Assembly (NCBI GenBank): GCA_963920665.1
Contig: OY987266.1
Coordinates: forward strand, 6,639,001-6,703,000
Length of the DNA: 64,000 nt
Direction of reading: 5' to 3'
From: Straminergon stramineum
Lineage: Eukaryota; Streptophyta; Bryopsida; Hypnales; Calliergonaceae
Shown here: in pieces, positions 9,322 through 47,494 of the stretch
How positions within the stretch are numbered: position 1 is the stretch's first letter
Layout of the letters: every line of letters starts with the position of its first letter
Position numbers and translations under genes: made by a program
Notes under the pieces: model-generated
Told to the model about the DNA's origin: nothing
The model's input: only the letters and a program-made list of their open reading frames with translations
The model's database searches: none

Positions 9322-10234
9322 TTAACCCCTAAACGCTTCAACGTCCATTTTCTGGATGATGAACAGATTGAAACTTCAATTTCATCCTCCCAACTACTTG
9401 GATGAAAGTTATTTTAATTTGTGAAGATACATTATCAAGTTTTTTTCCTATCTAAGGGTTGGATTTGATGTTACAAGAGTTCATATTTTTCTAAAATTAC
9501 AAATGTGCAAGTATGTCAAGTGGTCAAATTGTATTGACTTTAGTTCAAAAGTGGATTAGCCAAAATGAGGTCATCAATAGGAAGAACATAAAAATTTCAA
9601 AAAATCACCATGTGAAGAGAACCTCATTTCAAATCCATTCCAATAAATTTTACTCAAAAATGATAATATTTTACTTGCAATCGATTAAAATTTTTTTTTA
9701 TTCTTTTAACAAATGAAAACCCATTGCATTAAAAAAACCCAGAGAAGGACAGCCAAGCCAGAGGTTGAACAAATGAAGAGAAATGAGCAGCAAACGTGGA
9801 AACAAAGAAACTAGAGAAAAAGAACGGGGGGACCCCCTATTCCAAATAATGCAAGTGTCAACTCTATGAGCTAGTGTTGGAGAGCAAAGCCAAATTTTAT
9901 CAAACCCCGCCCAACTTTTGTCATAATTTTGAGGTTGGGGCTGTACCCTACGTTGAGTCTTTAGCATCACCATATGCCCTAAGTTGAGAAGGCTGTCTCA
10001 TAAAGCTTGCAATTGAATTTTGAAGGAATTTTGAAATTTCTCTTTCAAAATTTATAAAAAAAGATTGGTGATAGCATTGGTGAATCTAACTATACAGATG
10101 GAATCTACAAATCAAAATCTGCAACTTCTATTTGCATTTCAATTCCAAAATATGCTTCCAAATAGCACCTTATAATGATTTTTCTCAAATCGTCAATTCT
10201 GGAGATGAATCTAGACGTTACGTTTAGGGGTTAA
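9322..10234. mobile_element. TTAA-type element family K, carrying a nested retroposon
   Basis: Begins TTAACCCCTAAACG at 9322 and ends CGTTTAGGGGTTAA at 10234. The inverted match continues inwards (ACGTC) with a short offset. Without the retroposon at 9692-10006 the element would be about 600 bp. TTAA at both limits matches the other families in this window. Confidence 0.75.
9692..10006 (-). mobile_element. 5'-truncated LINE-like retroposon with target duplication
   Basis: Read on the minus strand, it ends with an AATGCAATGGGTTTTCATTT block followed by an A-rich tail (the T-run near 9692-9700 on plus). Flanks CTTGCAATCGA (9673 onwards) and CTTGCAATTGA (10007 onwards) form a near-perfect target duplication. 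GC content is higher than its surroundings. A minus-strand ORF (9698-9973) shows no recognisable domain. Confidence 0.65.
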
Positions 10235-10365
10235 GGGTTAAAGCCTTTAGTTTCTGAGGATTTCAAGTTGATAAAAAAATTAGAGTTCTTAAATTTCATT
10301 TTGTCTTCTAAAATTGTTGAAACTAAAGAGGATCATTTAGTCATTATGAATCAATTTTTTTTAAA

Positions 10366-11012
10366 TTACCCCCTAAATGCCCAAGGCACCAAGATTCTGG
10401 TGTTCCAAAAACTTTGAAGTTAAGTAGAACCCAACCAAATTGCTGTTATTAGTAGATTGTATTTTTGGTGAACTCTTTTTGAAGTCTAGTTTTAGGATAA
10501 AAAAGCCAATCTTAAAAATGAAGGATTATGATTTATCTATTTAAGATTTTGTACAAGGATGCCCATTGCAATCTCGACCTCCTGTAGTGTTGACAGCTCT
10601 TGGAAATGAGACTCAAATACACTAGATCTTGGAGGAAAAATCACATTAGAAATTCATTTAAAAAAAATCGTAGAATAGATTTTGAAAAACTGTAAATTGA
10701 TTGGGGTTGTGAATGTTGAGCCCTATAACCTCATATTTTTTTAGTGACCAACTTTTTAGAGTTGACATGCAAAAAGATAATTGAAACTTTTTCATAGTTT
10801 TAACACCCTCATGATCAAACATTATAATCTTTCAATCCGTAAGTGATATTGTTATGTTTTCTTTTCCTATGTGATCTCTAACATGTCTAGTTTGAATTTG
10901 TACGGTTGCAATTCAAAAGAAATTGGTATAACTTATGAAAATGTTGACTTTTTGTTCAATTTTGAACAAATTTCAAGAAGCTCCAAACAGGCCTTGGGCA
11001 TTTAAGGGTTAA
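10366..11012 (-). mobile_element. TTAA-type element family A, copy 1
   Basis: The left end is TTACCCCCTAAATGCCCAAG, with one base of TTAA changed. The right end is CCTTGGGCATTTAAGGGTTAA (CTTGGGCATTTAAGGGTTAA at the limit). The interior is the reverse complement of 11617-12281, including the GATCAAACATTATAATCTTT block. It is 647 bp and non-coding. Confidence 0.8.
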
Positions 11013-11053
11013 AAGAACCAACTGAAGAGTGTTATGGATTGATAAGCTGGCAC

Positions 11054-11235
11054 TTCTGTTTGGTGACGGTCTCCCTGTGAGCTTCTGGCTCTTTCTGGTT
11101 TGGTTGGTCCTTAGGTTGTCTAAATATTAAAAAAATTGCCGCCGGGGATTTGCTCCCTTGGTTTCTTCTTTGTACTGTTTCCTCTATCAATGGAAATTGT
11201 CCATGTGTTTCAAAAATAAATAAATAAACAAATAA
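11054..11235 (+). mobile_element. Short LINE/SINE 3'-end retroposon with 12-bp target duplication
   Basis: ATAAGCTGGCAC occurs at 11042-11053 and 11236-11247, exactly flanking the insert. The insert ends CAATGGAAATTGTCCATGTG followed by an (AAAT)n-type tail. The same 3' motif occurs in the insert at 23376-23474 (minus strand). A short body, A-rich tail and 12-bp duplication indicate target-primed reverse transcription of a 5'-truncated LINE or a SINE. Confidence 0.8.
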
Positions 11236-11616
11236 ATAAGCTGGCACAAATCCCAACAAAATTCGCAGGTGTCAGATAATTGACAATTTCAATCAAATTC
11301 TAAAACTGAAAGCACAGTAATTCTAATCAACACCTTTTTAAAATTAAATAATACAATTGATGGTAATCAGTACAATAAAACTGGGCGGGACCCCCGCCAC
11401 TCACCTGGCGAATTATTAATAATTTAAGGGTCGTGAAGGAATTGGGGCAATATTCATGCCTGGCAGTCTGGGTCCATTGATGACGCAGGGATATCACATG
11501 TGGTTTGCCACATGGCAACGAGCCACTGGTCCAAACAGTTGGCGAACAATTCCAATATCAGAATCAGAGTGGGGTGAGAGGGTCCGGCCGGCGGGAGTTT
11601 TTAGAGAGAGACCCTT

Positions 11617-12170
11617 TTAACCCCTAAATGCCCAAGGCCTGTTTGGAGCTCCTTGAAATTTGCTCTAAATTGAACATAAAGTCAACATTTTCACAAGTTG
11701 TACCAATTTCTTTTGAATTGTAACCGTACACATTCAAACTAGACATGTTGGAGATCACATAGGAAAAGAAAACATAACAATATCACTTACAGATTGAAAG
11801 ATTATAATGTTTGATCATGAGGGTGTAAAAATTGTGAAAATTTTTCAATTCACTTTTAGCATGTCAAATCTAAAAAGTTGGTCACTAAAAAAAATGAGGT
11901 TATAGGGCCTAGCATGTACAACCCCAATCAATTTACGGTTATTCAAAAGCTATTCTACAATTTTTTTAAATGAATTTCTAATGTGATTTTTCCTCCAAGA
12001 TCTAGTGTATTTGAAGCTCATTTTCAAGAGCCCTCAACACTACAAGAAGTCAAGATTGCAATGGGCATCCTTGCACTAAATCTTCAATAGAAAAATCATA
12101 AGCCTTTATTTTTCAGATCAACTTTTTAATTCTAAGACTAGACTTCAAAAAGAATTCTCCAAAAATATAA

Positions 12171-12204
<34 letters not shown>

Positions 12205-12281
12205 GCAATTTGGTTGGATTTTACTTAACTTCAGAGTTTTCGAAACACCAAAATCTTGTGCCTTGGGCATTTAGGGGTTAA
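11617..12281 (+). mobile_element. TTAA-type element family A, copy 2
   Basis: Starts TTAACCCCTAAATGCCCAAG and ends CTTGGGCATTTAGGGGTTAA, so the terminal inverted repeats are essentially perfect over 20 bp or more. It is 665 bp long and contains an (ACT)n microsatellite. The terminal TTAA (12278-12281) is also the first four bases of the next copy. Confidence 0.9.
12171..12203. repeat. (ACT)n microsatellite
   Basis: About eleven uninterrupted ACT units inside TTAA element A2. The related copies A3 and A4 carry only one or two units at the same site (near 12843 and 46430), so it expanded after insertion. Confidence 0.95.
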
Positions 12282-12932
12282 TCCCTAAATCCCCAAGATC
12301 TTTTTTGAACTTCTAGGAATTTGCTCTAAATTGAATGAAAAGCCAATATTTTGATAAGCTTTATCGATTTAAAAAAAAAATGTAATAGTACAAATTCAAA
12401 CTAGATATGTTAGAGATCACTTAGGAAAAAGGTAGCACAACAATTTCACTTAAGGATTGAAAGATTATAATGTTTGATCATGTGGGTGTTAAAACTGCAA
12501 AAGCGACTTGAAGTCTTTCGATCCTCTTTTCACACATCAAATCTAAAAATTTGGTCACCCAAAACTATGAGGTGAAAGGAACTAACATACATAACCTCAA
12601 TCAATTTTTAGTTTCTAAAAATCTACTTTGCAATTTTTTTAAATGAATTTCAAATATATTTTTTCTTCCAATATCTAGTGTATTTGATGCTCATTTCCAA
12701 GAGCCCTTAACAATACAAAAAGTCAAGATTGCAATGGGCTCCCTTGTACAAAATCTTGAATAGAAAAATCATAATCAATCATTTTCAAGATCAGTTTTTT
12801 GATACTTAAACTAGACTTCAAAAAGAAGTTTTCAAAATACAAACAACTAATAATAGCAACTTGGCTAGGTTTTATTTAACTTCAAAGTTTTGCAAACACC
12901 AGACTTTGGCGTCTTGGGCATTTAGAGGTTAA
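12278..12932 (+). mobile_element. TTAA-type element family A, copy 3
   Basis: Starts TTAATCCCTAAATCCCCAAG and ends CTTGGGCATTTAGAGGTTAA. It is collinear with A2 across the body. It shares its left TTAA with the right TTAA of A2, giving a TTAA-element-TTAA-element-TTAA chain. More diverged than A2 and non-coding. Confidence 0.85.
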
Positions 12933-12954
12933 TCAGGTTCTAACAACTTCAACC

Positions 12955-13085
12955 TTTTTTTTCCAAACAAATGGAAATCCATTGCAAAACAGATAATACA
13001 CTTCAACCCTTTGGGAGGTGGGTGGCTTTGAATTCTTTTTAAACGACAAAAAATGAAAATGAAAAATAAAAAACAAGACCTAAGG
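12955..13085 (-). mobile_element. Probable short retroposon tail
   Basis: A T-run followed by CCAAACAAATGGAAATCCAT resembles, in inverted sense, the LINE/SINE 3' ends at 11054-11235 and 23376-23474. TAACAAC lies on each side (about 12943 and 13087) as a possible short target duplication. The body is barely 130 bp, so the call is tentative. Confidence 0.4.
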
Positions 13086-13136
13086 TAACAACACTCAATA
13101 TTGTCCAATAAGGGATTGAGAATGGTTATACCACAT

Positions 13137-13700
13137 TTAACCCTTAGCCCCTAAATGAATTTGACTATGTTTTCACCAAAAATGTTCCCAAATTGCCATT
13201 TCTAGTATAAGTATCAAATCTTAGAAAAAAAGAACATTTTGGGACACTTAAAACCATAGGATCTTGTACTACATTGGTTTGAGAAGCTAGGGAAAAAATT
13301 TCAGAAATTTTCACCTTGTAGATTGCAAGATATTAGCATTTGAATGGATAAAAAATCCTTTGGGGGGCCTTGCAAAAAATTGGCAACTGCACAAGGTTAC
13401 ATTTGTATGAAAAAATGTCCCAAATGGTGATCCTTTGGATTCATTATTCAAGGCAATTTGGCTACATGCTTGAAAAATTTCAGATCAATTGGAATTGTAC
13501 AACATATAGGAAAAAAAATAGAAAGTAGAAAGAAATAGAGAATGATTCAAATTACTAAATTGTCAAGAATTTAAGAATGGAATGAAAAAATGCCAATCCC
13601 AATGGTGGTAATGTTGGAATTAACAATCTACATCCTAAGATTTTATATTTTTCCAAAAATATTGAAAATTGAGTTAAATAAAGGACTTCAAAGTTTATTG
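13137..13700 (+). mobile_element. TTAA-type element family B, 3'-truncated copy (B2)
   Basis: Starts TTAACCCTTAGCCCCTAAAT. The body then matches 15470-15880 and the reverse complement of 24542-25403 (GACTATGTTTTCACC, GATTGCAAGATATTAGCATT). Similarity stops near 13700, so the right terminus is lost. Confidence 0.65.
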
Positions 13701-13996
13701 TAGATACATAACTACAACTAGGTTCAAGGTTCACATGCTCATGTCTCAAAACTCATGCACTAGCATCATTGGATATGGAAGCCTACTATTCATTGTGAGG
13801 TTGACCAATCAAACTATCTTCACCTTCATTTTAAAGTTCTATATTCAAAACATTCTATACAAGTGATCATGGATCTCAATACACTATAGAAAGAGAAAAA
13901 TAACTCCAACTATTCTAAGTAGTTGGTGTACATTGAGAGCTATGCATTTTGCTTGCATGCTTGTGAGCTTCTATATTTGCATCTTTGGCTACGTTA

Positions 13997-14915
13997 TTAA
14001 CCTCTAAAGGTTCATAGTCCCATTGGGGGACAAATGGAATTTTAGGCAGGTACCTATGGTCTCAATTTTTGTCCTAAGTTTTTGAAACTTTTTCTAAAGA
14101 TAGAAAAATTTATAAGCTTCATGGTAATTTAATTATTTTTTCATTTGATGCTCGGGAACAAAAGTTATGCCCAAACAAGCTCAAAATAGGGGAGAAGGGG
14201 TAGCCAAAAAAAATTCAAAAATTTGAATTTTATTTCTTTATATAATTTCTCCTCGTAGGTTATATTTTTGTCTACATGGAAAGCTTTGATTCATTCCGTT
14301 TTGATTTGTTATGAAAAAGTTATGGACAATCTTGTTTTTCAAGCAATTAGAATATCTTCTTGAAAAAATAACTTGCAAGATTCATTTCTAAATGCAATTT
14401 TTACAATTTAAAAAAAAAGGTCCACATGGTTTAATTTGCTTGCTAGAAAAATCTCACCATTGGAATTAGTGCATTTTAATTCCATCTTAGAGATATTAAT
14501 AATTTAGATTTTCCTTCTATCTTGGACCTACTTCTACTTAACAATTTTTTAAAGAATGAAAATCATGAGTGCTTCTTTAAAAAATAAATTATAGACTATC
14601 AACTCAATTCTTCAACACAAATATTTTTTTAATTCAAAGTCCACAATGCAAAAAATTTCAACAAAAGGTAGTCAAAGTCATTTGAAATTGCAAGCCAATG
14701 TTCAAAAACCTTTGTTTTCCAACTTTGAATGCTAATGTCTCTCAATCTGTAAAGTCCAACTTCATGAAACTCCTACCACTTGATCTTAGACAAGTAAAGT
14801 ATAAGATCATGCAGTTAGATTCTAAAAAAAATTCGTTTTCTTGGGTGGATGTAGTAAAAATGGATGTTTTGAGTGTTTTTTGACCAATAAAATGGCCTTT
14901 GTCCTAAGGGGTTAA
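13997..14915 (+). mobile_element. TTAA-type element family D, copy 1
   Basis: Starts TTAACCTCTAAAGGTTCATA and ends TTTGTCCTAAGGGGTTAA. The interior matches 46568-47494 and 49110-50021: GACAAATGGAATTTTAGGCA, CAATTTTTGTCCTAAGTTTT, and GTTATGGACAATCTTGTTTT. It is 919 bp and has no ORF of note. Confidence 0.8.
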
Positions 14916-14919
14916 CCAA

Positions 14920-15060: not shown

Positions 15061-15094
15061 TTAAGTCCTACCACCCCAATTGTATAGTAGGCAC

Positions 15095-15400: not shown

Positions 15401-15459
15401 ATGAGTGACTTTTTAAGCTATGTGAGAGACTTTTGCTTTACAATGAGTGAGTAGTTGTC

Positions 15460-17337
15460 TTATTCTCTAAAGTTCCTTAACTATGTTTTCACCCAAAATA
15501 CTCCCAAACTGCCATTTCTAGTACAAGTACCAAATCTTTGAAAAAAGAACATTTTTGGACACATGTAACCACAGGATCATGCAGTACACTGGTTTGAGAA
15601 GATAGGGAAAAAAATTCAGAAATTTTCACCATGTGGATTGCAAGATATTAGCATTTGAATGGACAAAAATCCTTTTGGGGCCCCTATGAAAAACAGGCCA
15701 ACTACACTTTACAAGGTCACATTTGTAAAGAAAATTTTCATGTTGCTGGTGCTTATTTGGATTCATTATTCAAGGCAAGTTGGCTACATGCCTGAAAAAT
15801 TACAGATAATTTGGAATTGTACAGCACATAGGAAAAAAATAGAAAGTAGAAAGAAATAGAGAATGATTCAAAATACGAAATCGTTAACCCCTCACCGCCG
15901 AAGGGGACCAAAAGTGCCCTAAGGTCAAATTCAAAGTGTTGTAACTTTTGCGTCCGATGTCCAAATTCAAAAAAACTTGTTGAAAAATTTGAGCTCTCTC
16001 TTCTAGTTTGTGTGGTAAAATTTTCAGATCAATCTAGGATTTGCTAAGTTTTTGAAAGCCAATCGAAGTTTACAAGTTCAATTTGAGTTCACCAAACTGC
16101 ATTTGATGGTTGCAACTTTGGGGGCTTGAATCTCCTTCATCCAAAGTTTGTTTTCAATAAAATCTATTGGGTTATGTTCCCCTCGAAGTCTACTTATTGT
16201 GGTAGAATTTTCATGTCAATCCAAGTTGTTTTGAGCAATTCAAAGTTCAAAATCCCAACATTTTTGGAATACAATGAACTTTGACAACTTGTTTCTTCTT
16301 CATACAATGTTCGTTTCCAATAATTGCTTTTGGAAAAGTTGCGCATACTAGTCTAGTTTGTGTGTATAAAATTTCATATCAATCCAAGAAGTTATGAGTG
16401 AGTGAGAAGCATTTTAATAGAAGAAGGTTCAAATTTTGATGTATTTTTTGCAACTTTTCTTGTTATTTTTTGACATTTCAAAGCCATTTTGTAGACACAA
16501 TGAGTCAATTGAATGATATTTTTTTTCATCAAAATTTTTTTATGCTGATTTTGTAAAACTTTATCATTTAAGGTTTCTTCATTTGAGTAGATTTAGAAAC
16601 CAAATTTCGCCTCCAAATGTATTTTTAGAAAAATTTCAGCATCCTTTTTCAACACTAAAACATTATAATCTTGCAATCTATGCAATCAAATGACATCAAA
16701 TTTGATGCACATCATCTACAACAAGTGCACTACAAGATTTTACAGTTGAAATCTCTCTATCTCAATGAAAATTATATCTATAACACTTCAGAAGAAATGT
16801 CGTTTTTGAACTCGTTCAGGCCTTGGGTGGTGAGGGGTTAAGGATTTAGTTATGGAATTGAAAAATGCCAATCCCAGTGGTTGTAATTTTGTAATAAAAA
16901 ATCTACATTTTATGATTTTTTTCCCAAAAAATATTGAAAATTGAGTTAAGTAGATGACTTCAAAGTTTATTTTAGAGTGAAGAATCCATAACTACCCACA
17001 AACTAAAACTCCTCATAACTTTCATCTCATAAATCAAATGGAAGGATTTGAAGCTTTCCACAGATATAGAAAGATGGAAAAAAAATTCAAAATTGTTTTT
17101 ATGAAAAAAGTGAATTTTCTTAATTTGTACAAGTTGCCTGAGTTGAGAAAGAAACTACATGTCATACAATAACTTTTTAACTATGTATTCAAATGTTATG
17201 AAAATTGTTGTCTATTAAAGCTATTCCTCGCCCCCATGTTATATGAAAATTTTATAGAAAAAAAAAATTCCATTTGTAGTGAGCTGCCCAAAATCACTTT
17301 GTTGCCAAAAAATTCAATTTGGTCCTTTTGGGATTAA
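15460..17337 (+). mobile_element. TTAA-type element family B, copy 3, split by a family C insertion
   Basis: The left part (to 15893) and the right part (from 16842) rejoin to match other B copies. The right end is GGTCCTTTTGGGATTAA. The left end near 15460 (CTCTAAAGTTCCTTAACTAT) has lost a clear TTAA. Across the join the sequence reads AAATCG-TTAA-GGATTTAG, matching the uninterrupted AAATTGTTAAGAATTTAG of the B copies at about 6700 and 28660. Confidence 0.8.
15894..16841 (+). mobile_element. TTAA-type element family C, copy 1, with demonstrable TTAA target duplication
   Basis: Starts TTAACCCCTCACCGCCGAAG and ends CTTGGGTGGTGAGGGGTTAA; 948 bp including both TTAA. It lies inside a family B element whose other copies carry a single TTAA at this point, so TTAA was duplicated on insertion. 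The body is AT-rich, non-coding, and nearly identical in order to 37671-38638. Confidence 0.93.
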
Positions 17338-17830: not shown

Positions 17831-19080
17831 TCGAATTTAGAGTGCTTGGTTGTAAAGAAAATGGTAGGAATGCCTTGTAGGATGCTAAACCCATCATTCG
17901 AAGAATGCCTTGTATGTTGAATTTGTGTGCTATGATGAATTTGTTTCCTATATGGTAATTGTAAAAAAAAAGCTCCCTATTTTTGTGTTACGTTAATTCT
18001 ATATTCTTCACCCCTCCTTGCTAATTTGGAGCCTTTGATTGAAAATTTGCAAATTTTATTAAGTGTGAAATAAAAAAATTCATGTATTTTTTCCAAGGCA
18101 AAAATTCACCTTGTAGGACCCACTTCAAATGACAAGTTTAGCATTTTGCAAATGCCTTTCCTCGTGCAATTAAGTTATAAGCACCCCCTTTAGGGGGACA
18201 CTATGGAACCCAATTGCACCATTTCAAATTAAATGTCTACTTTTCACCAGATAAAAGTAAATTTTTTGCCAAAATTTTTATATTTCTATATTAAATGTGG
18301 ATGAAATCACCAAATTTGGATGAAAAATGTGTAAATAGAATTGCAAAATATGTTTGGGGTCCCAAAGATGGATGAATGTAGAAATACAAATGCCCTTCAC
18401 CAAATTTTTGAGTGATTATCATCTTGGCACTTTCTAAAAGAGTAAAAATATAAAAGGATTGGTTCTAAAGAAAAGCCATGAGTAATAAGAGTACTAGTAT
18501 GGATGTCAACTTCATATAAGTTAATAATTCTGAAAGCCCCATCGTCCACTACACAAAATAGTGAAATTAGGTTGCCCCACACTAATTTCTCAACATTTGA
18601 CACTATTAAAATATTTGTAGTTATTGTACAAGAATGCACTACTTTTGAATTAGATATTGTTGTAATTGAGACTTGTGAACCTCCATGTGTACAAATGGAA
18701 ACATTTTTAGAAATATTTGTTGGCTTGTAAAGTAACTTTCTTGTTGTAAGGCAATCTGATTGTCACTATTTTGTGTAGTTGTCGAATTGGACCCTAAGTC
18801 CACCCCTAATGATCCCTGCCCAAGAATCATGAAAATAGGAATTCTCTCCTTCCTCACTAAGTTATGGCCGAATGGCAGACCCACTGATGCTCTGCTCGCT
18901 GCGCTGCTGCTCGTATCTGAGAAGATAAGCTAAGCTCCACTGTAGTGGAGTCCACATGATGGGAATGTTCATATCATATTGGCCGGGGGCCTCCGGGATG
19001 ATTGTAACTTACCCCATCTTCTTTGGGTGGGGCTGACTCCTGAAGGAAAAATGAAGTGAACACTTCATTACTTTCCTTTT
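17831..19080. other. Unassigned intergenic stretch
   Basis: AT-rich DNA with short chance ORFs on both strands. A brief GC-richer patch (about 18860-19040) contains GCTCCACTGTAGTGGAGT, a small palindrome. No gene or element ends were recognised. Confidence 0.4.
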
Positions 19081-19816
19081 ATAACCCCTCACCACCCAAG
19101 GCTTGAACAGGTTCAAAAACGACATTTCTTTTGAAGCATTATAGATATAATTTTCACTGACTTAGAGAGATTTTAACTATAAAATCTTGTAGTGCACTTG
19201 TTGTAGATGATGTGCATCAAATTTGGTGTCATTTGATTGCATAGATTGCAAGATTATAATGTTTTAGTGTTGAAAAAGGATGCTGAAATTTCCCTAAAAA
19301 TACATTTGGAGGCGAAATTTGGTTTCTAAATCTACTCAAATGAAGAAACCTTAAATGATAAAGTGATTCAAAATCAGCATAAAAAAATTTTGATGAAAAA
19401 AAATATCATTCAATTGACTCATTGTGTCTACAAAATGACTTTGAAATGACAAAAAATAACAAGAAAAGTTGCAAAAAATACATCAAAATTTGAACCTCCT
19501 TCTATTAAAATGCTTCTCACTCACTCATAACTTCTTGGATTGATATGAAATTTTATACACACAAACTAGACTAGTATGTGCAACTTTTCCAAAAGCAATT
19601 ATTGAAAACGAACATTGTATGAAGAAGAAACAAGTTGTCAAAGTTCATTGTATTCCAAAAATGTTGGGATTTTGAACTTTGAATTGCTCCCAGACATTCA
19701 AAACAAGTTGGGTTGACATGAAAATTCTACCTAAATAAGTAGACTTTGAGGGGTACATAACCCAATAGAATTTATTGAAAACAAACTTTGGATGAAGGAG
19801 ATTCAAACCCCTGAAG
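19081..19816 (-). mobile_element. TTAA-type element family C, truncated copy 2
   Basis: Starts ATAACCCCTCACCACCCAAG, with one base of TTAA altered, and is the reverse complement of most of 15894-16841. Similarity stops near 19816, where an unrelated GTTGGGTCAGGGATC begins. About 200 bp of the far end is missing. Confidence 0.8.
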
Positions 19817-19999
19817 TTGGGTCAGGGATCATGCCATGAGATCCTCTACATACACCAGAATAGTGAAATTAGGTTGCCTTAAAGATCAATCAATTGCATT
19901 GCCTTACCCATCAAAAGTTACCTCATGATTTACTACTAGTCCACATGAAGGTGCATGGAACTCTCTGAAGTGTGCACCTTGAACTAGTGCATCAATCTG

Positions 20000-22692: not shown

Positions 22693-22974
22693 TTAACCCC
22701 TAAAGGCTTAAAGTCCTAGAATGGGTTTTAAAAGATTTTGGGTAAATTTTGTTCTTGCATGTCAAATTTTACTTTATTTTTTGAAACTTTTTTAGAAGGC
22801 AAGGGAAAATTCAAAAATTTTGAAAACATAATTTTTATTTCATTTGGTATCCATGAGAAAAAATTATGGCCTCTTATATACATAATGCTTAAGCCAAGAT
22901 AACAAAGGAAAAAACACCAATGAAAACTTGAAATAAAATTTTTTTTAAATTTTATTTCCTCAAAGAGAATATTT

Positions 22975-23174
22975 CACTACAAGAAAAAGGGGTGTTTTAA
23001 GTATAGTCCTAATAGTATAGCCCTATAATGACTTGAAAGGGGTCTTCTCAATAAAAATTTAATAGAAATACATGTGTTTTAAGCAAAATTTTACTATGAA
23101 CACTCCTTTCAGGTCATTACTTATAGGACTATACTACTAGGACCATATTTGAAATACCCCTTTCTCTTGTAGTA
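22975..23174. mobile_element. CACTA MITE with 3-bp target duplication
   Basis: The left end CACTACAAGAAAAAGGGGTG and the right end, inverted (TACTACAAGAGAAAGGGGTA), are classical En/Spm-CACTA termini. TTT on both sides is the expected 3-bp duplication. Subterminal arms (AGTCCTAATAGTATAGCCCT and its inverted mate) extend the pairing over about 65 bp. It is 200 bp and non-autonomous. Confidence 0.9.
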
Positions 23175-23375
23175 TTTATGTCTACACAAAGAACTTTGAC
23201 TTACTCCTCTTGGATTAGTGATGTGAAAGTTATGAAGGGTTCTACTTAACAAACTTCGAAGGATGAGAATCATTAATTCGAAAAAATCCTAGATTTTCAA
23301 CTCAATTCCCCACCATAAAAACTTAAACTTCAAAACCTTGTAGTAAAGGAATTTGATGTTTAAGAGAACTCAAAG

Positions 23376-23474
23376 TTTTTTTTTTATTTTTTATTCAAAC
23401 ACATGGACAATTTCCATTGCAAAAGGAAACAGTACAATGAACCAAAGGCACAAATCATGAAAAAAAATTTACAT
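23376..23474 (-). mobile_element. 99-bp retroposon tail with 12-bp target duplication
   Basis: GAGAACTCAAAG (23364-23375) and GAGAATTCAAAG (23475-23486) flank it, with one mismatch. Read on the minus strand, it ends with a CAATGGAAATTGTCCATGTG block and an A-rich tail, the same 3' end as 11054-11235. An extremely 5'-truncated LINE/SINE copy. Confidence 0.75.
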
Positions 23475-23819
23475 GAGAATTCAAAGTTTGAAAACCTAGT
23501 AAGGAAAGGTCCAAGGAAATCTTTTTCTTTTCTACTTTGAACATTAATATCATACAATCTATATTGTTAAAGTTCCTGAAATTTATTCCATATATTCTCA
23601 TACAAGTCTCATGCAAGATCCTACTATTCATTCCAAAAAAATAGTTTTTATTTATCTTAGTTTTGTGCACTTGAAAATGGAAGTTTTCAAGTGCTTTTGG
23701 GTGAAACATAGTCATTAACTTTTTTGAAATTAAACCCCTTTGACTTCCAAGAAAGATCCAACTAAAATGCTTGGCAATATTATGACGAATTTAGGTGTAG
23801 TTACCTTAGAGAATTTGAG

Positions 23820-24540
23820 CTTTAACCCTAAAAATGTTGATGAGGTTGTTGAACGTCCTTAGATGACAACACCTAAGATTGTAGGATGGAAACAAACGTT
23901 TTTTTCCTCCCATTTTCTTGTGAAGTTTCTTGAGTACATTTTAAGTGAAAAATATTGCAAATTTCCTCATTATGGCATTATAGACTTTTCTATAGAAGAA
24001 GATGCTTAATCCATAGATCATCCTTGTAGAATATTTTGGTCATTTCTTGCTCTTTACTCTTGATGTGGATTTTAGACATGAAAATTATATTTTTTGAATT
24101 TTATTCCATCTAATGAAACAAAGCTTATCAAATGTAGTTCCTACTCCAATTGGATATTTTGAATGATTTGTAAATTTCAATATTTCATAGCAATATGAAC
24201 TTTGGGTCTATAACCATGGTTTGTTGAATTTTTTAATTTCAAAGTGACATGGTAACTTTGGTTCATACCATGATGTTATTTACTATAAATATACATCTAT
24301 GGTGAAATTTTCAGATTTTTCAAGTACATTTTGTATTCGACATGAATTTTCTTCATTTTTTTATATTGAAAAAGTCACTATACTTCAAATTATCTCCAAA
24401 AATATTTGAAAATTTTACATCTTATAGTAGACCTATGATTTTCATCTCTGAAAAAAATAGTTGTAATTAAAAAATTTCATTCCTATCTAGTTGCAAATTG
24501 GTAGCAAACAATGTGATGGATTGTAAGGCTTGAAATCAAG
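23820..24540 (+). repeat. Dispersed repeat J, copy 1
   Basis: Collinear with 51130-52240 once the insertion there is removed: GTTGTAGGATGGA, AGTTTCTTGAGTACATTTTA, TTACTCTTGATGTGGATTTT. The inverse of this repeat appears at about 48120-48760. Non-coding. Confidence 0.6.
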
Positions 24541-24541
24541 G

Positions 24542-25403
24542 TTAACCCCTGAAGGACCAAGGTGTGTTTTTTAGCAACATAACTTTTTTGGGCAGGTACG
24601 TGTGACTAGAGATTTCCATATTGTTGGCCCAAATTTTAATAGAAGGTGTGGATGAGGAATATCTTTCATATGCACTAAATTTCAGGACATTTGGAAATAT
24701 GAGTCAAAAGTTATGGCCTAATATGTAGTTTGTTTCTCAACTTGGGCAGTCTAGGCACATCTGAAAAAATCATTTTTTTCAAAAATAAAAATTTGAAATT
24801 GGTTTTCTAGATTTATATATACATAGAAAGCTTTTAATCATTCCATTTTGATCAATGAGTCAAAAGTTATGAGATGTTTTAGTTTGCGGGCAAGTATGGA
24901 TTCTCTACTCTAGATTTTTTATTAGAACATTACAACCATTGGGATTGGGATTTTTCAATTCCATTATTAAATTGTTAACAACTTAGTATTTTGAATCATT
25001 CTCTACATCTTTCTACTTACTATTTTTTTCCTAGTATATGTTGCGCAATTCCAAATGATTTGAAAATTTTCAAGCATGTAGCCAACTTGCATTGAAGAAT
25101 GAATCTAAAGAAGCACCACCATTTTGGACATTTTTTCATACAAATGTGACCTTGTGAAATGTAGTTGCCCGTTTTTTCACAAGGCCCCCCAAAAAATTTG
25201 TCACATCAAATGCTAATATCTTACAATCTATAGGATGTAAATTTCTAAAAAAATTTCCACATACTCTCAATATAGTGTACTACAAGATCCTATGGTTACA
25301 TGTGTCCCAAAATGATATTTAAAAAAAATTTGGTACTTCTATTAGAATTGGTTGTTTTTGAGGTTTTTTGGTGATAATATAGTCAAGAAACTTTAGAGGT
25401 TAA
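24542..25403 (-). mobile_element. TTAA-type element family B, complete copy (B4)
   Basis: TTAA occurs at 24542-24545 (TTAACCCCTGAAGGACCAAG) and at 25400-25403 (CTTTAGAGGTTAA). The 862-bp body is the reverse complement of family B. This is the best copy for defining the family length without nested DNA. Confidence 0.8.
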
Positions 25404-27905: not shown

Positions 27906-29276
27906 CCCATGGATGGATGACTTCATTGTTCACTATAGAAACAAAGAAGAGCCAGGCACCTATTGGTCCAATAATCGGAGCAGTTTTTTGTGAATACCTT
28001 AGTCAAGAGGATGTAATCATAGGATCCTATAGTTTGACCTCCAATGGATATTTTTGGGGTTTTTTTAAAGTAGATGATGTCACTTGGTTCCAAAAGTCAT
28101 GAATTTTGTCCTTTAAGGGTTAAAACCATTATTGCACCTCCTACATGATGGAAAAGCTGAAAATGGTCATGTATTCTACATGTATAATGCCTTATTTGAA
28201 CATGATTAGGTTTAGATATTAAAATGACTTCTAGATGTAAAAGGTTAGTGTGTGTTAAATATTCAATTCAGCACTATCTGTCTTGCCATATTTTAGTACA
28301 AACTTCATATTCTAAGAGTAAAATGCATGACTGTACACACAGTCCCCATAAGACCAATTTGACTTCCATTGGAGGTCATATGTAATCATAGGATCCTATA
28401 GTTCGATGGTTTGAAAAGATGTGGAAAAAATTTTAAAAATTTCCACCATGTAGATTGCAAGATATTAGAGTTTGAATTGACAAATCTCTTTCAAAGGGGT
28501 CTTGTGAAAAAACGGGCAACTGCACTTCACAAGGTCATGTTTTTATGAAAAAATGTCCAAAATGGTAGTGCTTCTTTGGTCACTTGGATTTGTACAACAT
28601 TTAGGGGAAAAAATAGTAAGTAGAAAGAAGTAGAAAATAACTCAAAATATAAAATTGTTAAGAATTTTGTTATGGAATTGAAAAATGCCAATTCCAATGG
28701 TTGTAATATTGTAATAAACAATCTACCCCCATTGTAATTTCTTTTTTTAATATTGAAAATTGATTTAAATAATGGACTTCAAAGTTTATCTCAAAGTAGA
28801 GATTCCATAACTACCCACAAACTAAAACTCCTCATAACTTTCATCTCATTAATCAAACTAGAATGATTCAAAACTTGCCAAGTATATATAAATCAAGAAA
28901 ACTATTTTCGATTTTTTTAAAGTAATATTTAAGAATTTTTTGAGCTGCCATAAGGCCCTTTGAGCAATGAAAATTATATGTCATGCAATAACTTTTTAAC
29001 CATGCAGTCAAAAGTTATGAAAGTTGTTGCACCTAAAAGCTACTTCTTGGGCACATGTTGTGTTAAAATTTCAAAGAAAAAAATAAGAAATTTATTTGTA
29101 GTGAATTGCCCCAAATTGCTATGTTGCCAAAAAATGCAATTTGGGCATTTAGGAGTTAAAGATTAGTCCTTGAAAAATGAAGCCCCCTTGACCGAGGTAG
29201 TCATCAAAATGCTCCTATTATTGAACCCATAGGTGCCTTCTTTGTTTTTATAGTGAACAATGAAGTCATCCATTGA
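27906..29276. repeat. Widely spaced inverted repeat flanking a family B copy
   Basis: About 85 bp at 27906-27990 (GATGACTTCATTGTTCACTA) recurs inverted at about 29195-29276. The 1.2 kb between holds a TTAA terminus at 28120-28123 and the family B copy ending at 29159. The arms may be ends of an older element into which the TTAA elements inserted. Confidence 0.5.
28360..29159 (+). mobile_element. TTAA-type element family B, copy 5
   Basis: Matches the right two thirds of family B and ends TTTGGGCATTTAGGAGTTAA, TTAA at 29156-29159. The segment AAAATTGTTAAGAATTTTGT near 28650 shows the uninterrupted site into which element C1 inserted in copy B3. The left end is not clear. Confidence 0.65.
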
Positions 29277-30590: not shown

Positions 30591-31850
30591 TTAACCCCAC
30601 CCCCTAAAGTCCCATTGCTCTCTTGGAAGACGAAATGGATTTTGGAGAGGGTTTTATGGTCCCAATTTTTGTCATGTTTTTTTAAGATATGAAAACACAT
30701 TAGCTTTGGAGAAATGTAAATTTTACTCAAATTGGTGCCTAGGAGCAAATTTTTTGCCACAATAAGCCCAAAACATAACTTATCAAACAAATACAAAATA
30801 ATATATGAAAAGTCAAAATGAAATTTCCAAAATTTTGTTTCACATAGAAAATATTTTGTCTATGTGAAAAGATTTGATTCATTCTATTTGGCTAGTGACA
30901 AGAAAGTTGTGGACAATCTTTTTTAAGGGGCAATCTAAGCATTGATTTGAAAAAATAACTTACATGATTCATTTTTTAGTACAATTTTTACAATTTTTAA
31001 AAAGTAGTTTTTTAGAGTTTAGTTCGCTTGATAGAAGAATCCTACTATTTGGATTATAATTGTGTTTTAATTCCATGTAAGACCTATTAATAATTTAAGT
31101 TTTCCTTCAATCTCATAACTACTTCTATTTAACAATTTCTTAGAAAATTTAAATAAAATATTTTCTCAAAAAAAATTCCTAGACTTTCAATAAAAAATTT
31201 TAACATAAAAAATTAGAAATTCAATATTGATAGTACAAATCTTTAAGCCAATAAGAAGGCTTGTCTGACCTCAATTTTTGACATGATTTTTATGAATTGA
31301 AAAAAAATCGGAAATCACATTAGCTTTCTAGGAATATAGTTCTTATTTCAACTGGTGCTTGATAGCAAAAGTTATACCACCTGAAGTTTAAAAAGTAATT
31401 TGCTAGGCAATACAAAAAAAATCTCAAATTTTTTATTGATTTTTTAATTTCTCAAAGATTATGTTTCTATCACATATAAAGTTTTGATTCACTCCATTTG
31501 GATTAGTGATGTGAAGCTTATGAAACTTAGTTTTTGTTTTATGAGCAATCACTTTATCTTCTTGAGAAAATAACTTGTAGGATTCATTTATGAACTCAAT
31601 TTTTACAATTTTTTAAAAAACAAAGTTCATCATAGTTTACTTTGATGAGTAGAGTAATCTCACTATTAGGATTAATGTATTTCAATTCTATCTTGGAACT
31701 CTCTTAACAATTTAGTTTTACCTTCCATCACGTACCTACTCCTACTTAACAATTTTTTTAAAAGGAAGATTAAATGTGTGCTTTTTGAAAATTTTCCCCA
31801 ATTTTCAACTCAATCTTTAACATATAAAATTATAATTTTTATATTTAGGC

Positions 31851-31890
31851 CCTAAGCCCTAAAATCCTAAATCCTAAATCCAAATTCTAA
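31851..31890. repeat. Degenerate telomere-like CCTAAA repeats
   Basis: CCCTAAGCCCTAAAATCCTA and following CCTAAAT units resemble decayed plant telomere repeat (CCCTAAA). Only about 40 bp, within family D compound DNA, so likely chance or microsatellite. Confidence 0.4.
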
Positions 31891-32134
31891 ATTGACAATG
31901 CAAAGTTTTTAAATTAAGAAGATTCAAATCTAATAAATCTAGTCAAGCAAAGTGCGAAAAACTTGTTTCTTCATTTTAAATGCAAATATCTCTGCAATCT
32001 ACAAAGTCAAAGCTTTTGAAATTTCTTCCACGCACTCTTATATTAGTCTAGTACAAGATCCTATGGATAGATGTGAAGAATTTTTTTTACTATTTTGAGT
32101 GTTTTTTTATTTAAAAAAAAAGACTTGAGACTTT

Positions 32135-33574
32135 GGGTAGGTTTGCTATTTTGTGAGTATGTGGACATGAGCTTGTAAGCTTGTGAGGATACATTTTTTT
32201 CAAAATTCCACCTATAAATTTTGGATAAATTTTAGTACATATTGCCATGAACCTACTACAGTGATCCCTTGAACAACCTTGATGAGCTACTTATTGGACT
32301 TTGCTAGATTTGAAGAGAAAAAAAATTGGTGATTAATTAGGATTTGTTTGAAAGCGATTCAGGTTGCTTCATGGAGAATTTGATTTTCATAGTCACTCTC
32401 TTCTTTTTGTTGGGTACTTCTTGGCATTAAGTGGAGCCCCCTAGTTGTGGGAAAAAAAATTTATTAAAAAAAACAAAAAAAACAATTTTTTTCTTGTAGC
32501 TAGGGGAATCTTCTCAATGTTGAGAGGTACCCAACAATGAGAGGGAAGTTGTTATATCTAAATGGAACAACCTCAGTCGATTTCAAACGAATCCAAATTA
32601 GTAACCAATTTTTTTTCTTAAAATCTAGAAAAGCTCAATAAGTAGCACATCAAGGTGACAAGTGCTTGATCCTCCTCTTGGTGCCAAGAGGTTCTAAGCA
32701 ATAAGAGAGGAGTGATTAACTAAAAGCCCATTTGATCAAGGGTAAAAGAATTGGACCCTGGGAGATCCTAAAAGAAGACAATGATCAACTAATCAACAAT
32801 TTGGTGTAACGAAGCTCATTTCTTCCAAAAACAATCCCTATCAACCAAATATTTTCTTCTAAAATCTTAAGAAGTTCAATTACCAGCACATAAAGATAGA
32901 AGTGTAGGTATCCCCCATTGGCTCTAAGAGGATCTACACTACTATAAGATAGTGATCAACAAAAATGAAATTCAGTGCGACTAAGCTCTTTCCACATGTA
33001 AAGAATTCCAATCAACAGTCTCCTCCCATTGACCCTCAAAAAAGATTCATGATGCTACAAGACATGGGTCATCTAAAATAAAATTCATTGTGCCAAAGAT
33101 CCTTAGTTACAAAAATATTTCTAATGAACAATTTTTTTTCTAAAATTTAAACAAGAAAAAATTATTGGTACCCTCCCATCAACCATGAGAGGACCCATGT
33201 TGTTATAGGACAATGACCAACCAATATTCTATACAAACTTATTTCCATATCCATTCATCTTTCACATCAATTGAGTTCATCATTTTCATATTGTATACTT
33301 CTGATATTTTAGAGAACACTGAAAATTATAATTTTCCTCTAAATTTTACATAATATCTATATTCTACATGAAATCCACGGTAATAGGTACAAGATATCCA
33401 CAATATTAGGTTTGCATTAATATGTATTCAAACTTACTAGAAATAATAAATTTAGACCAAAATTTTTTAATAAAATCTATTTTTAGAAATATTATTAAGT
33501 TTTCTAGTGCTTCTTCAAATTTCTAAGCTCAACGCTTATAGGCTCATGCTCACACGCTCACATAGTAGGACCTT
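32135..33574. mobile_element. Mutator-like foldback element, copy 2, with 9-bp target duplication
   Basis: TGAGACTTT at 32126-32134 and 33575-33583 is a 9-bp direct repeat. Removing the insert restores a normal family D right end (GACTTTAGGGGTTAA). The termini share GCTATTTTGTGAG-type sequence with copy 1 at 4368-5547. It holds an inner inverted repeat at about 32406-32530 and several diverged units of roughly 110-120 bp (about 32600-33180, each with AGCTC, CAATCAACA and CTAAAAT landmarks). Confidence 0.75.
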
Positions 33575-34615: not shown

Positions 34616-34639
34616 TATCTAAACTGCTACTAACTTAGA

Positions 34640-36191: not shown

Positions 36192-36680
36192 TTAACCCTT
36201 AAAGGACAAAGTTTTAGGATCAAAGTTCGTTTTCAAATAATTATGGATTTGAAAATTTTCAAATCTTAACTAAGAAAATGTGGTTCTAATAATATTTTTT
36301 ATTCCTTTCTTATCTTTTTTCCAAATTATTAAAATTGTAATTGTTGTGGAACTTTGAAGGTAGCATTTGAAAGCTTAAAATACAACACTTTTGAGCTTTT
36401 CTATTGAATTTCTATTTCTCTATTCTATTAGTCCATGATATTTATTACTACCATCTCCAAATTTGCTAAAAATTTCATATTGTTTTAAAGTTTTTTGTGA
36501 TTTTAATTATTTTTCCAAAGAAATTGCTTTATAAAAGTAAATAAATTTTCATTTCATGATTTTTAATTGTAAAAAATGAAGTTCAATTTGAATATACATT
36601 ACTACATAAGAAAATATCAATTTTGAGAAAACTAATGGAGTTTGGCCAAACATGAATATGAAATGTCCTTTAAGGGTTAA
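36192..36680 (+). mobile_element. TTAA-type element family E
   Basis: Starts TTAACCCTTAAAGGACAAAG and ends ATGTCCTTTAAGGGTTAA, TTAA at both limits. The terminal inverted repeat is about 17 bp. At 489 bp it is the shortest complete TTAA element here. Single copy in the window, non-coding. Confidence 0.8.
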
Positions 36681-37670
36681 TTTGGATGAAGTGATCTAAC
36701 ATGGTGTAGATCAATTTTTTTGGAGTTATATTTTTGTTCACAAGTAAAGCAATTTTTTTCAAAGAGATGCTTAATGATATATTTCTACATTCTCAATGGA
36801 TGAAATAATCAAGATGCTTCAATTTTTTTGGATGAGTGTATACAATTATAGATGAAAAGTTGAAATTTCATCCATATTTTGCATATTTCATCCATGTAAA
36901 TAGCTTCATTACTCCAATGAAAACTCTTTTTCTACATTGAATGTAGAATTAGAAACAAGCATCAGTACTCCATAAGGTCGTATCTTTACAACACTGTCTA
37001 GGCATAGAATTTCGTTTCATTCATTTCATTCGTTTCAAATAAAAATAAAAATTGACTCACTTTTTCAAGTCAAATAAGTACTCAAACTTTCAAACTAAGT
37101 GTAAATTAGTGTAGGACAATGCCCAAGAAGGAGGGGATTGTGGGAGAAAAATGGATTGACAAGGAAGGCAAAGCCCAACAAGGAGGCACATTTTTTCCCA
37201 CAATCCCTAACGGTGAGGACATAGCACGACATAAACTAAAGCCAAGAAATTGTATTTCATTAAGATATTGTAATAGATTCAATTTGGATGAAAAATTCAT
37301 AATCAAGTATTACAACCTATTTCTAGACCAAAGTGTGTGATTTCTTAGGAGTGGTTTAAGAGAGCCACATCTAATTTCGATTGGTTCCCAACATCGAATA
37401 ATCTAGATTCTTGCCTAAAATGCATTCCTATTATTCACGAGAGCTTATGGTCGGTTTTAGAAAGACATATTTTCATCACTTTGAAAATTCATCGTTTATT
37501 CATACGGTGTCCAAAAAATGCATTCTAAGAGAATCTAGAATCCCCTTTTGAATGCCAACAAGATCCCACAAAAAGTTTTTCAATATAATATTAGGAACCA
37601 TGCTTAATTGCTTAGAATTGCTTCTTCGGTCAATTTTAGGTGTAGTTACTATACTTGTCATTAACCCCTC
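36681..37670. other. Unassigned intergenic stretch
   Basis: AT-rich; a 73-residue ORF at 37119-37340 (plus) overlaps one on the other strand and has no recognised domain. No element ends seen. Confidence 0.4.
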
Positions 37671-38638
37671 ACCGTTGAAGGGGACTAAAAATATCCTTAG
37701 GTCAAATTCAAAGTGCTATAACTTTTGCATCTGATGTTTAAATTCAATAAAACTTGTTGAAAAATTTGAACTCTCTCTTCTAGTTTGTGTGGTAAAATTT
37801 TCAGATCAATCCAAGATGTATTGAGTTTTTGGAAGCCAATCGAAGTTTACAAGTTCAATTTGAGTTCACCAAATTGCATTTGATGGCTGCAACTTCGGGG
37901 GCTTGTATCTCCTTCATCCAAAGTTAGTTTTCAATCAAATTTGTTGGGGTATGTTACCCTTGAAGTTTGATTATTGTGGTAGAATTTTCATGATTGTCAA
38001 TCCATGATGTTTTGAATGTCTTAGAGCAATTCAAAGTTCAAAATCCCGACAATTTTGGATTACAATGAACTTTGGTGGCTTGTTTCTTCTTCATACAATG
38101 TTTGTTTTCAATAATTGTTTTTGGAAAAGTTGCACATAGTAGTCTAGTTTGTGTGTATAAAATTTCATATCAATCCAAGAAGTTATGAGTGACTTAGAAG
38201 TATTTTAGTAGAAGAAGGTTCAAATTTTGATGTATTTTTTGCAATTTTTCTTGCAATTTTTTTGACATTTCAAAGCCATTTTGTAGACACAATGAGTCAA
38301 TTGAATGATATTTTTTTTCATCAATGTGTTTTTATGCTAATTTTGAATCACTTTATAGTTTTAAGTTTCTTCATTTGAGTAGATTTAGAAACCAAATTTT
38401 GTCTCCAAATGTAATTTTTAGGAAAATTTCAGCATCTTTTTTCAACACTAAAACATTATAATCTTGCAATCTATGCAATCAAATGACACCAAATTTGATG
38501 CACGTCATCTACAACAATTGAACTACAAGATTGTACGGTTGAGATCTCTATAACTCACTCAGAGAAAATTATATCTACAACACTTCAAAAGAAATGTTGT
38601 TCTTGAACTTGTTCAGGCCTTGGGCGGTGAGGGGTTAA
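37671..38638 (+). mobile_element. TTAA-type element family C, copy 3, abutting the APL-like gene leader
   Basis: Starts TTAACCCCTCACCGTTGAAG and ends CTTGGGCGGTGAGGGGTTAA. It is 968 bp with TTAA on both sides and is collinear with 15894-16841. It ends two bases before the GC-rich block that leads into the MYB-CC gene. Confidence 0.92.
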
Positions 38639-38640
38639 CT

Positions 38641-44919: not shown

Positions 44920-45333
44920 GGAGATCACCCATTTCCGATCAGCCTCCCCCATTCTCGTAGTTTAGGCTTCTCCATTTCTGATCAGATGAAGTGTAGGTGA
45001 CAGCTCATGCACTGCACAACCCCGGGGACAACAAAAATGTTTAGGTGGTGTACATTGAAAGCTTACAATGATCAAATCTTGTACTCTGGAAGCCTTACAT
45101 CAATTTTGGAACCATCCTATGGTTGAAAATAGGTTTACCTATATATCAAGAATGGGACAAATAGAATCGTCACCAAAAAAATTCATGATAATTTTACTTT
45201 TAAGGGAAAAAATTTAGGAAATTATGAAATCCTTCTAAAATCTATATCTTTACACAGGAAAAAAATTTCCTGAACTTTTCCCATGCCGCAGATAGGCTGA
45301 ATTGCTTAAGTGGTCGGAAATGGGTGATCATCC
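44920..45333 (+). mobile_element. MITE family F, copy 1, at the 3' end of the MYB-CC gene
   Basis: The ends GATCACCCATTTCCGATCA and, inverted, GATCACCCATTTCCGACCA form terminal repeats of about 19 bp. About 410 bp. The body matches 47496-47906 (GTAGTTTAGGCT, GGTGTACATTGAAAGCT, GGAACCATCCTATGGTTG). It begins one base after the AATAAA signal. Confidence 0.75.
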
Positions 45334-45798
45334 AGATTATACTCCGGAGTATTTTAGAGTGGCTGGTTTTGTCAGGAGGTGTCAGAAGTGACATGAGTCT
45401 TCAGTTTGGAAACGGTGATCATTGGTTCAATTCTGAGTTATTCGATACTTTATTTTATTTTTATTCGCCATTGGGTCATTTTTCGGAGGAAGAGAAGAAT
45501 TGTCAAAAGTGAAATATAAGGATTAAGGAGTGCATGGCATGCAGATATTTTGCTGCACTATATTTCGTCAACTCGCTCGAAAACCAACAAATATTTGGAT
45601 GGATGAAAGATAAAGTGTTTTTTTAAGTGTGCGTGACAGCTGTTAGATAAGAACAACTTGATTCTGGGTCCGTCACTCCGTCAATGCGGGCGAATAGAAT
45701 ACGACGCTGATTCCACAATCTAAAGGTTGAAGACCGACTTCAGGGTTTTGAAAATGTCCAATTCAATTAACCGGCCACAGCACACGTGAAGAATAGTA
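45334..45798. other. Unassigned stretch between repeats
   Basis: A 62-residue ORF at 45324-45512 has no recognised domain. No other signal seen. Confidence 0.4.
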
Positions 45799-46533
45799 CT
45801 CCCTCTGTTTTCTGAAAAAAGACCTGTGTTTCCTTTGTGTTTTACAATGGCAGCACGGCTCTTTTTAACCCCTAAATGCCTAAGGCCTGTTTTTGAGTTT
45901 TCTGGTATTTGCTCTCAATTGAAGAAAATGCCAACATTTGGATGAGTTGAATCAATTTTTTTGGAATTGTAACCGTATAACTTCAAACTAGACATGTTAG
46001 AGATCATTTAGGAAAAGTAAACACAACAATATCACTTATGGAGTGAAAGATTATAATGTTTGCCCATGAGGGTGTTGAAATTGCAAAAGTGATTTGAAGT
46101 CTTTCAATCCTCTTTTCACAAGTCAAATCTAAAAATTCGGTGACCAAAAAAATATGAGGTTAGAGGACCTAACATGCATAACCCCAATCAATTCATGGCT
46201 TCTCAAAATCTACTCTACAATTTTTTTTAATGAATTTCGAATGAGATTATTTCTCTAAGCTCAAGTGTATTTGAGGCTCATTTCCAAGAGCCCTCAACAC
46301 TACGGAAAGTCAAGATTGCAATGGGTACCCTTGCACAAAATCTTGAATAGAAAAATCACTATCATTCATTTTCAAAATCAGATTTTTGATGCTAAAATTA
46401 GACTTCAAAAAGAACTTCCCAAAAATACAAACTACTAAAAATAGCAAATTGGTTAGGTTTTATTTAACTTCAAAGTTTTGCAAACACCAAATTTTGGTGC
46501 CTTGGGCATTTAGGGGTTAAGAAACAGAGATAG
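45799..46533. mobile_element. Small Stowaway-like MITE split by a TTAA element
   Basis: The left end CTCCCTCTGTTTTCTGAAAA and the right end, inverted (CTATCTCTGTTTCTTAAAAA), are separated by the insertion 45865-46520. With it removed, a MITE of about 80 bp remains, bordered by TA (45797-45798 and 46534-46535). Confidence 0.7.
45865..46520 (+). mobile_element. TTAA-type element family A, copy 4
   Basis: Starts TTAACCCCTAAATGCCTAAG and ends CTTGGGCATTTAGGGGTTAA; 656 bp. Collinear with A2 and A3 throughout. TTAA is present on both sides, and the flanks join into a Stowaway-like MITE, so the limits are independently supported. Confidence 0.93.
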
Positions 46534-46567
46534 TATTGAAATAGGGTCAATTTTGATATCTCCCAAA

Positions 46568-47494
46568 TTAACCCCTAAAGGACCTTTGTTCCTTCAGGGG
46601 ACAAAAAAAATTTCGGGTAGGTACCTAAGGTCTCAATTTTTGACCTGATTTTTTGAAACTTTGTATGAGGATAGAAGAATTGATAAGCTTCATGGAAATA
46701 TAATTTTTTTTCATTTGGTGCATGGGAACAAAAGTTATGCCCAAATAAGCTCAAAATAGGGGAGAAGGGCTAGCAAAAAAAAAGTTTCAAAAATTTGAAT
46801 TTTTTTTATTTTTTTCCCTTATAGATTATAATTTTTTCTATACGGAAAACTTTGATTCATTCCATTTGGATTTGTTATGAGAAAGTTATAGACAATCTTG
46901 TTTTTCAAGCAATTAGAGCATCTTCTTGAAAAAATAACTTGCAAGATTCATTTTCGAATGCAATTTTTACAATTTAAAAGAAAAAAAGGTTCCTAGAGTT
47001 TCATTTTCTTTCTAGAACAATCTCACCATTGGGATTAGTGCATTTTAATTCCATCTTAGAGATATTAATAATTTAGATTTTCCTTCTACCTTGTACCTAC
47101 TTCTATTTAACAATTTTTTAAAGTATAAATTTTTTGTTTCTGTTGTATTTTCTTTTTTTTCCTAGACTCTCGACTCAATTATCCACCATAAAAGTTTAAA
47201 GCTCAAAACTCTGTATTGCAAAAAATTTAAGTTAAGAAGGTTCAAAGTTGAATAACCTAGTCCCGCAATGTGTGAAAAAATTTGCTTTCTTGACTTTAAA
47301 TGTAGATATCTTGCAATCTATGTGGTCAAAATTTCTGAAATTTTTTCCAGACATTTTCATACTAGTTAGGTGTAAGATCCTATGGTTAGATGTGAAAAAA
47401 AATACAATTTTCAAATTCTTATACTCTTTGCTCTAAAAATGGCAATTTTGAATGTTTTTTTTGTAGAAAAAGGCCTTGGTCTTTTAGGGGTTAA
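46568..47494 (+). mobile_element. TTAA-type element family D, copy 4 (most intact)
   Basis: Starts TTAACCCCTAAAGGACCTTT and ends TTGGTCTTTTAGGGGTTAA; 927 bp with TTAA at both limits. The internal order matches 13997-14915 and 49110-50021. Short ORFs occur by chance only. Confidence 0.88.

Follow-up and report, generated by a model that had tools for sequence, protein, structure and literature searches.

The 64,000-nucleotide stretch of DNA analyzed here, hereafter the window, corresponds to positions 6639001-6703000 of its contig in the 326 Mb assembly of the moss Straminergon stramineum. It contains six families of AT-rich elements of about 0.5-1 kb without a transposase, which very probably are miniature inverted-repeat transposable elements (MITEs), that is, non-autonomous members of the piggyBac superfamily in the moss nuclear genome. 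We propose that several diverged piggyBac lineages reside in this genome, each encoding a DDE_Tnp_1_7 transposase with a DDD catalytic triad within elements 4.9-6.6 kb long, the majority of which have 5'-TTAA/CCCC ends. The transposase of a lineage would recognize its own terminal sequence and would move short relatives carrying that sequence into TTAA sites, duplicating TTAA in the process. That these transposases act on the MITEs, that they do so by cut-and-paste chemistry, and when this took place are inferred. The plant host assumed in an earlier description of the window made without database searches (the sequence-only reading) was borne out: plastid matK in the assembly is 95% identical to its best database cluster, named for Campylium stellatum (Hypnales). 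A MYB-CC motif (PF14379, E 1e-20) in a window exon also fits a plant host.

The ends of the window elements take the form TTAACCCC...GGGGTTAA. When both strands were scanned for the end-like 12-mer TTAACCCCTAAA with at most two mismatches, 46 words were found, compared with 7-19 in 20 first-order Markov sequences. Paired ends delimit elements of 485-974 bp between TTAAs, which alignment sorts into families A, B, C, D, E and K (Table 1). As is typical of MITEs, the elements are short, lack transposase code, possess terminal inverted repeats (TIRs) and occur in many copies. Could the TTAA/CCCC arrangement be a chance pattern of AT-rich DNA combined with unrelated repeats? TTAA is indeed common, with 493 sites in the window. 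However, the excess of end-like words speaks against chance, and copies at different places match each other up to the TTAA/CCCC pattern and diverge beyond it, leaving this explanation a negligible probability. The sequence-only reading had described at least six internally different families with common ends, 0.5-1 kb long, AT-rich and non-coding. The number of families and their general character held up, but the families are not fully different inside, as B and C are related through common stretches of 64-295 bp at 67-77%. The length of the window K copy (909 bp) is inflated by a 321-bp insert; the 21 other aligned K copies measure 571-583 bp. Family E is much older than the rest, its window copy being 71-75% identical to the 39 other scored places.

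Copies elsewhere in the genome were identified with internal queries lacking the ends. For each family, 40 places were scored among the first-look candidates (2636-6183 for A, B, C, D and K; 515 for E), which are unverified copies and do not amount to a genome-wide copy count. In every one of the six families all 40 scored places gave a match, for family A at 90-100% identity. The sequence-only reading had proposed tabulating the four bases that flank each copy. Among 70 high-scoring copies, a selected rather than a random sample, exact TTAA was present at both ends in 45. The tally covers A, B, D, E and K; in family C, 40 places were scored. It comprises 15 of the 20 best A copies outside the window and 13 of 20 K copies by a strict column (20 of 39 fetched in both families), together with D (9/10), B (6/10) and E (2/10), for which a fixed rule was applied: TTAA and, directly after it, the 12 end bases of the family, allowing up to three mismatches. 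In three K copies (L062, L063 and L071) TTAA is off by one column at one end. Two K copies, L054 and L058, have the same flanks and are not independent; likewise, L115 and L117 in the D/B/E sample are copies of one another.

Insertion sites with unoccupied counterparts define the target more precisely. The D element at 15884-16841 interrupts a C copy, and nine C copies without the insertion match its flanks once these are joined. Read base by base, four of five such empty sites have TTAA (6699; 28658; reverse strand near 24978; L024), and the fifth, at 13563, has TCAA. Similarly, the empty counterpart of the transposase-bearing element L031, at window positions 50791-50610, has a single TTAA. 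Thus, at the level of sequence, filled and empty sites differ by a duplication of the four bases TTAA, the pattern expected of a piggyBac target. Kolobok and Sola, which have their own transposase types and short AT targets, are also TTAA users. Since TTAA includes both TAA and TA, a casual reading of the flanks is ambiguous, and the elements might have been ascribed to another superfamily with short AT targets, such as PIF/Harbinger (Tourist), Tc1/mariner (Stowaway), Kolobok or Sola. The 3-bp TAA/TTA duplication of PIF/Harbinger (PMC10004981; this and the other articles are cited from extracts) was not what we observed, as the duplication is four-base TTAA. Moreover, the transposons bearing these ends carry DDE_Tnp_1_7 transposases, whose sequence matches among solved structures are piggyBac and piggyBat, Kolobok and Sola transposases not having been searched for. 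An origin from another superfamily is therefore very unlikely.

The sequence-only reading had also proposed searching the genome for a DDE_Tnp_1_7 transposase with matching ends. Our search with PF13843 (DDE_Tnp_1_7) returned at least 118 matches, a lower bound, as 116 of 472 first-look candidates were scored. None of these matches lies inside the window, and a tblastn search of the window using transposase domains from 23 loci yielded nothing better than E = 0.2, in agreement with the earlier statement that the window holds no transposase. We read 23 transposase loci together with their flanks, the 20 best and three more. TTAA end pairs delimiting elements of 4.9-6.6 kb could be assigned at 19 of them: 17 of the 20 best (15 directly, L024 and L028 on re-reading) and two of the three others. 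Most ends start with CCCCT, and uninterrupted TIR runs extend over 0-16 bp in the 19 elements. Because the ends had been picked by the TTAA/CCCC pattern, the borders were checked independently on near-identical copies at different sites. In all seven pairwise comparisons (among L010, L011, L013 and L014, and between L009 and L018) similarity breaks at TTAA/CCCC or 1-8 bases outside TTAA where the flanks agree by chance. Taken together with the TTAA duplication, elements of this kind in the same genome support the piggyBac assignment made from the window's TTAA and CCC ends.

Open frames were examined at seven loci. Frames that start at a methionine and reach a Cys-rich tail without interruption were found in L011 (840 aa), L013 (798 aa), L014 (810 aa) and L025 (616 aa), so that, judged from sequence, a few copies retain an open transposase frame. 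The frames L011:3194-5716, L013:3826-6222 and L014:3071-5503 differ in length in an N-terminal E/G/Q-rich repeat region. The DDD triad is retained in 22 of the 23 loci, L024 having N at the second position; in L014, Q replaces E beside the first aspartate. Compared by sequence with solved structures, L025 matched piggyBat (9c0f, E 3e-33) and piggyBac (6x67/6x68, E 2e-26), and so did L011 (E 3e-25 and 3e-21, respectively). The tails of L011, L013, L014 and L025 are rich in Cys and His, and that of L025 gave a weak second stretch of similarity to piggyBat (12.5 bits); PF13842, the C-terminal cysteine-rich domain, had no match at E 0.01. In protein searches, relatives from metagenome collections reached 71% identity, and the only organism-named ones were three animal proteins at 26-30% identity.

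It may be asked whether these transposases are relics or domesticated genes unrelated to the spread of the MITEs. Of the 23 domains, 17 contain a stop and L024 has an altered triad, so that 18 are affected in all; L022 and L012 are among those with stops. However, the transposases lie in TTAA-flanked elements with matching ends, and the three uninterrupted copies L011, L013 and L014 occupy different sites and share 96.9-97.5% identity across most of their 6.3-6.4 kb. This near-identity suggests fairly recent movement, making recent activity possible, and we consider the relic explanation unlikely. More tentatively, several lineages may have been active recently, and perhaps still are, each having a distinct end code and high-copy MITEs of its own, with occasional use of non-TTAA targets.

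The window MITEs could then be asked to which transposons their ends correspond. We aligned the 50 bp inside TTAA of each MITE end to both ends of the 19 transposons. As a control, CCCCTAAA was joined to random non-MITE window sequence in 400 draws, giving a maximum score of 18; 18 of the 27 window ends exceeded it. All six B ends score 27-45 to L012, and all five C ends score 25-35 to L010, L011, L013, L014 and L030. Each of the four A copies has one end scoring 32-44 to the 5' end of L022 and an opposite end scoring 16-19. One of four D ends lies above the limit (25 to L020, 24 to L025), the rest scoring 16-17. The K 5' end scores 30 to L028 and 28 to L024, its 3' end 10, and neither E end matched a lineage above the control (12-13 over the 19 transposons). 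In sequence terms, the ends of A, B and C, weakly those of D, and one K end thus pair with separate lineages; for D and K the pairing is weak, and E is unassigned.

The transposase tree, built by a quick method and assessed by the Shimodaira-Hasegawa-like approximate likelihood ratio test (SH-aLRT) only, separates two clades. The first (starred) comprises L010-L014, L012 included, L016, L022, L024, L026 and L028; the second comprises L009, L015, L018-L021, L023 and L025, mostly with CGCCC-type ends. L017 and L027 stand apart from both. Database proteins interleave with the moss transposases, the moss rows requiring 10 changes, at least 7 of them forced by starred branches. The ends fit different lineages and transposases occur in several lineages; therefore, different MITE families most likely depend on transposases of different lineages. 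In contrast, the sequence-only reading had favored a single transposase, and one piggyBac transposase could have moved all six families, with cargo captured between common ends. All ends have CCCCTNA-like starts, so that partial cross-recognition is conceivable, and several B and C ends agree with L012 and L010-group 5' ends over the first ~12 bases. Yet over 50 bases B is matched by L012, four of eight A ends by L022, and C by the L010 group, with next-best lineages scoring 11-17 for those A and B ends, and the transposases of the L012, L022 and L010-group lineages are well separated in the tree. A single transposase is thus quite improbable, and the earlier proposal is not supported.

The transposon of locus L024 (L024:2399-8951, with an open 756-aa frame) is nested in a C copy. 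We considered whether C could be an internally deleted L024 and rejected this, because the C sequence at this locus lies on either side of the transposon and forms its two outer pieces. Other C copies run through the insertion point, most with about 13 extra bases; C therefore pairs with the L010 group.

A number of observations weigh against the assignment to piggyBac lineages. In 25 of the 70 sampled MITE copies exact TTAA is not present on both sides, and family E, with two copies out of ten, departs furthest from it. The K copy at L026:3125-3711 sits between two ATAT flanks; at the three empty counterparts a gapped alignment shows ATAT (L028), ATAC (L009) and ATTA (window 18555-18706), so that this copy likely, but not certainly, used a non-TTAA target. 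The B copy at 49110 has TTAT on both sides, and no empty site was found for it. The L024 site offers no clean TTAA comparison, its host C copy lacking the ~13 bases. Among the transposons, four of 23 loci (L016, L026, L027 and L032) yielded no end pair, the ends of L017, L024, L028 and L031 begin with TCCC or CCCT on one side, and the common CCCCT start compares with CC[C/T]T in the 12-19 bp TIRs quoted for piggyBac (PMC2872659). Stops interrupt 17 of 23 transposase domains, including those of L022 (best partner for A) and L012 (best partner for B). Finally, nine of the 27 window ends do not score above 18: three of A (16-18), three of D (16-17), both of E and the K 3' end.

In animal-cell work, piggyBac has become a standard transposon tool. 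The moss elements share with piggyBac and with piggyBat of Myotis the TTAA duplication, CCC-type ends, DDE_Tnp_1_7, the DDD triad (for piggyBat, PMC11707139) and, in four frames, a Cys-rich C-terminal stretch. They differ in their moss host, their size of 4.9-6.6 kb, their CCCCT ends and, in the L011 type, a long acidic, repeat-bearing N-terminus. Coral CMITEs (PMC2872659) are likewise non-coding, with TIRs and a TTAA duplication, but they measure ~100 bp, whereas the moss MITEs reach 0.5-1 kb, reside in a land plant and have partner transposons proposed by lineage. According to the sequence-only reading, piggyBac is rarely reported in plants. Wuneng and Microuli are rice elements. Both are given as TTAA elements (PMC2872659), and piggyBac is among the seven superfamilies of angiosperm MITEs (PMC10004981). 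All of these MITEs, the angiosperm ones being filed by target-site duplication and TIR, resemble ours in being TTAA-flanked, non-coding and of plant origin; the extracts mention no partner for them, whereas the moss genome also holds transposase-bearing elements. In addition, piggyBac is counted among superfamilies present in all groups studied (PMC4438587), and 0.12 Mb of piggyBac repeats is tabulated for a fern (PMC6890710). Rarity fits transposase-encoding copies: among the papers listed by searches of the open-access PMC literature, none described piggyBac elements with a transposase in a moss or another land plant. Both TTAA MITEs as a class and plant repeats labeled piggyBac have been described before; this moss adds a piggyBac radiation of several lineages, together with its MITEs, in a land plant. 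The natural history of piggyBac in land plants is thin in the literature found. If several lineages were indeed active recently, the moss system would be a natural plant counterpart of animal piggyBac systems. Open-frame transposases, MITEs with matching ends and visible end codes make two things testable: the breadth of piggyBac across plants, and the strictness with which a transposase depends on the ends of its own MITEs.

Table 1. MITEs and related copies in the window (window coordinates).
Feature	Position	Strand	Remarks
MITE family K	9322..10234	+	TTAA both sides; 321-bp foreign insert 9685-10005
MITE family A	10366..11012	-	Target-site duplication degraded on the 10366 side, TTAC on + strand
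MITE family A	11617..12281	+	TTAA 12278-12281 common to next A copy
MITE family A	12278..12932	+	Alignment to family
C-family copy, truncated	13144..13704	-	Unoccupied homologue of D insertion site (TCAA)
MITE family B	13997..14915	+	TTAA both sides
C-family copy	15460..17337	-	Interrupted by D element
MITE family D	15884..16841	+	Inside C copy 15460-17337
D copy, partial	19081..19819	-	Alignment to family
MITE family C	24542..25403	+	TTAA both sides; ends fit L010/L011/L013/L014/L030
C-family copy, degraded	28350..29159	-	Unoccupied homologue of D site (TTAA)
MITE family E (old)	36192..36680	+	TTAACCCTTAAAGGAC at both ends
MITE family D	37661..38638	+	TTAA both sides
MITE family A	45865..46520	+	TTAA both sides; middle served as family-A genome query
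MITE family B	46568..47494	+	TTAA both sides
MITE family B	49110..50021	+	TTAT both sides; beyond the interval of the sequence-only reading
C copy, degraded	near 6648-7207		Alignment to family
Older B/C-like remains	about 22693-24000 and 30591-32080		Alignment

Preferential insertion beside existing ends was considered, as 5 of 20 K copies, counted by eye, abut another end, compared with 8.6% of the TTAA sites in the sequence analyzed (P 0.024). The idea was dropped: none of 20 A copies abuts an end, and the pooled 5/40 is not unusual (P 0.26). The 321-bp insert in the window K copy had no match in the other 39 scored K places. It is flanked by the 11-base repeats CTTGCAATCGA/CTTGCAATTGA and has an oligo-T stretch at one end, so that it looks like a retrotransposed sequence resembling a short interspersed nuclear element (SINE). 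A further repeat family is present at window positions 45068-45337, 47642-47911 and 51450-51575, at 76-91% to its reference copies. An additional repeat, mostly in inverted pieces that are ~69-70% identical, occupies 4430-5533 and about 32170-33540.

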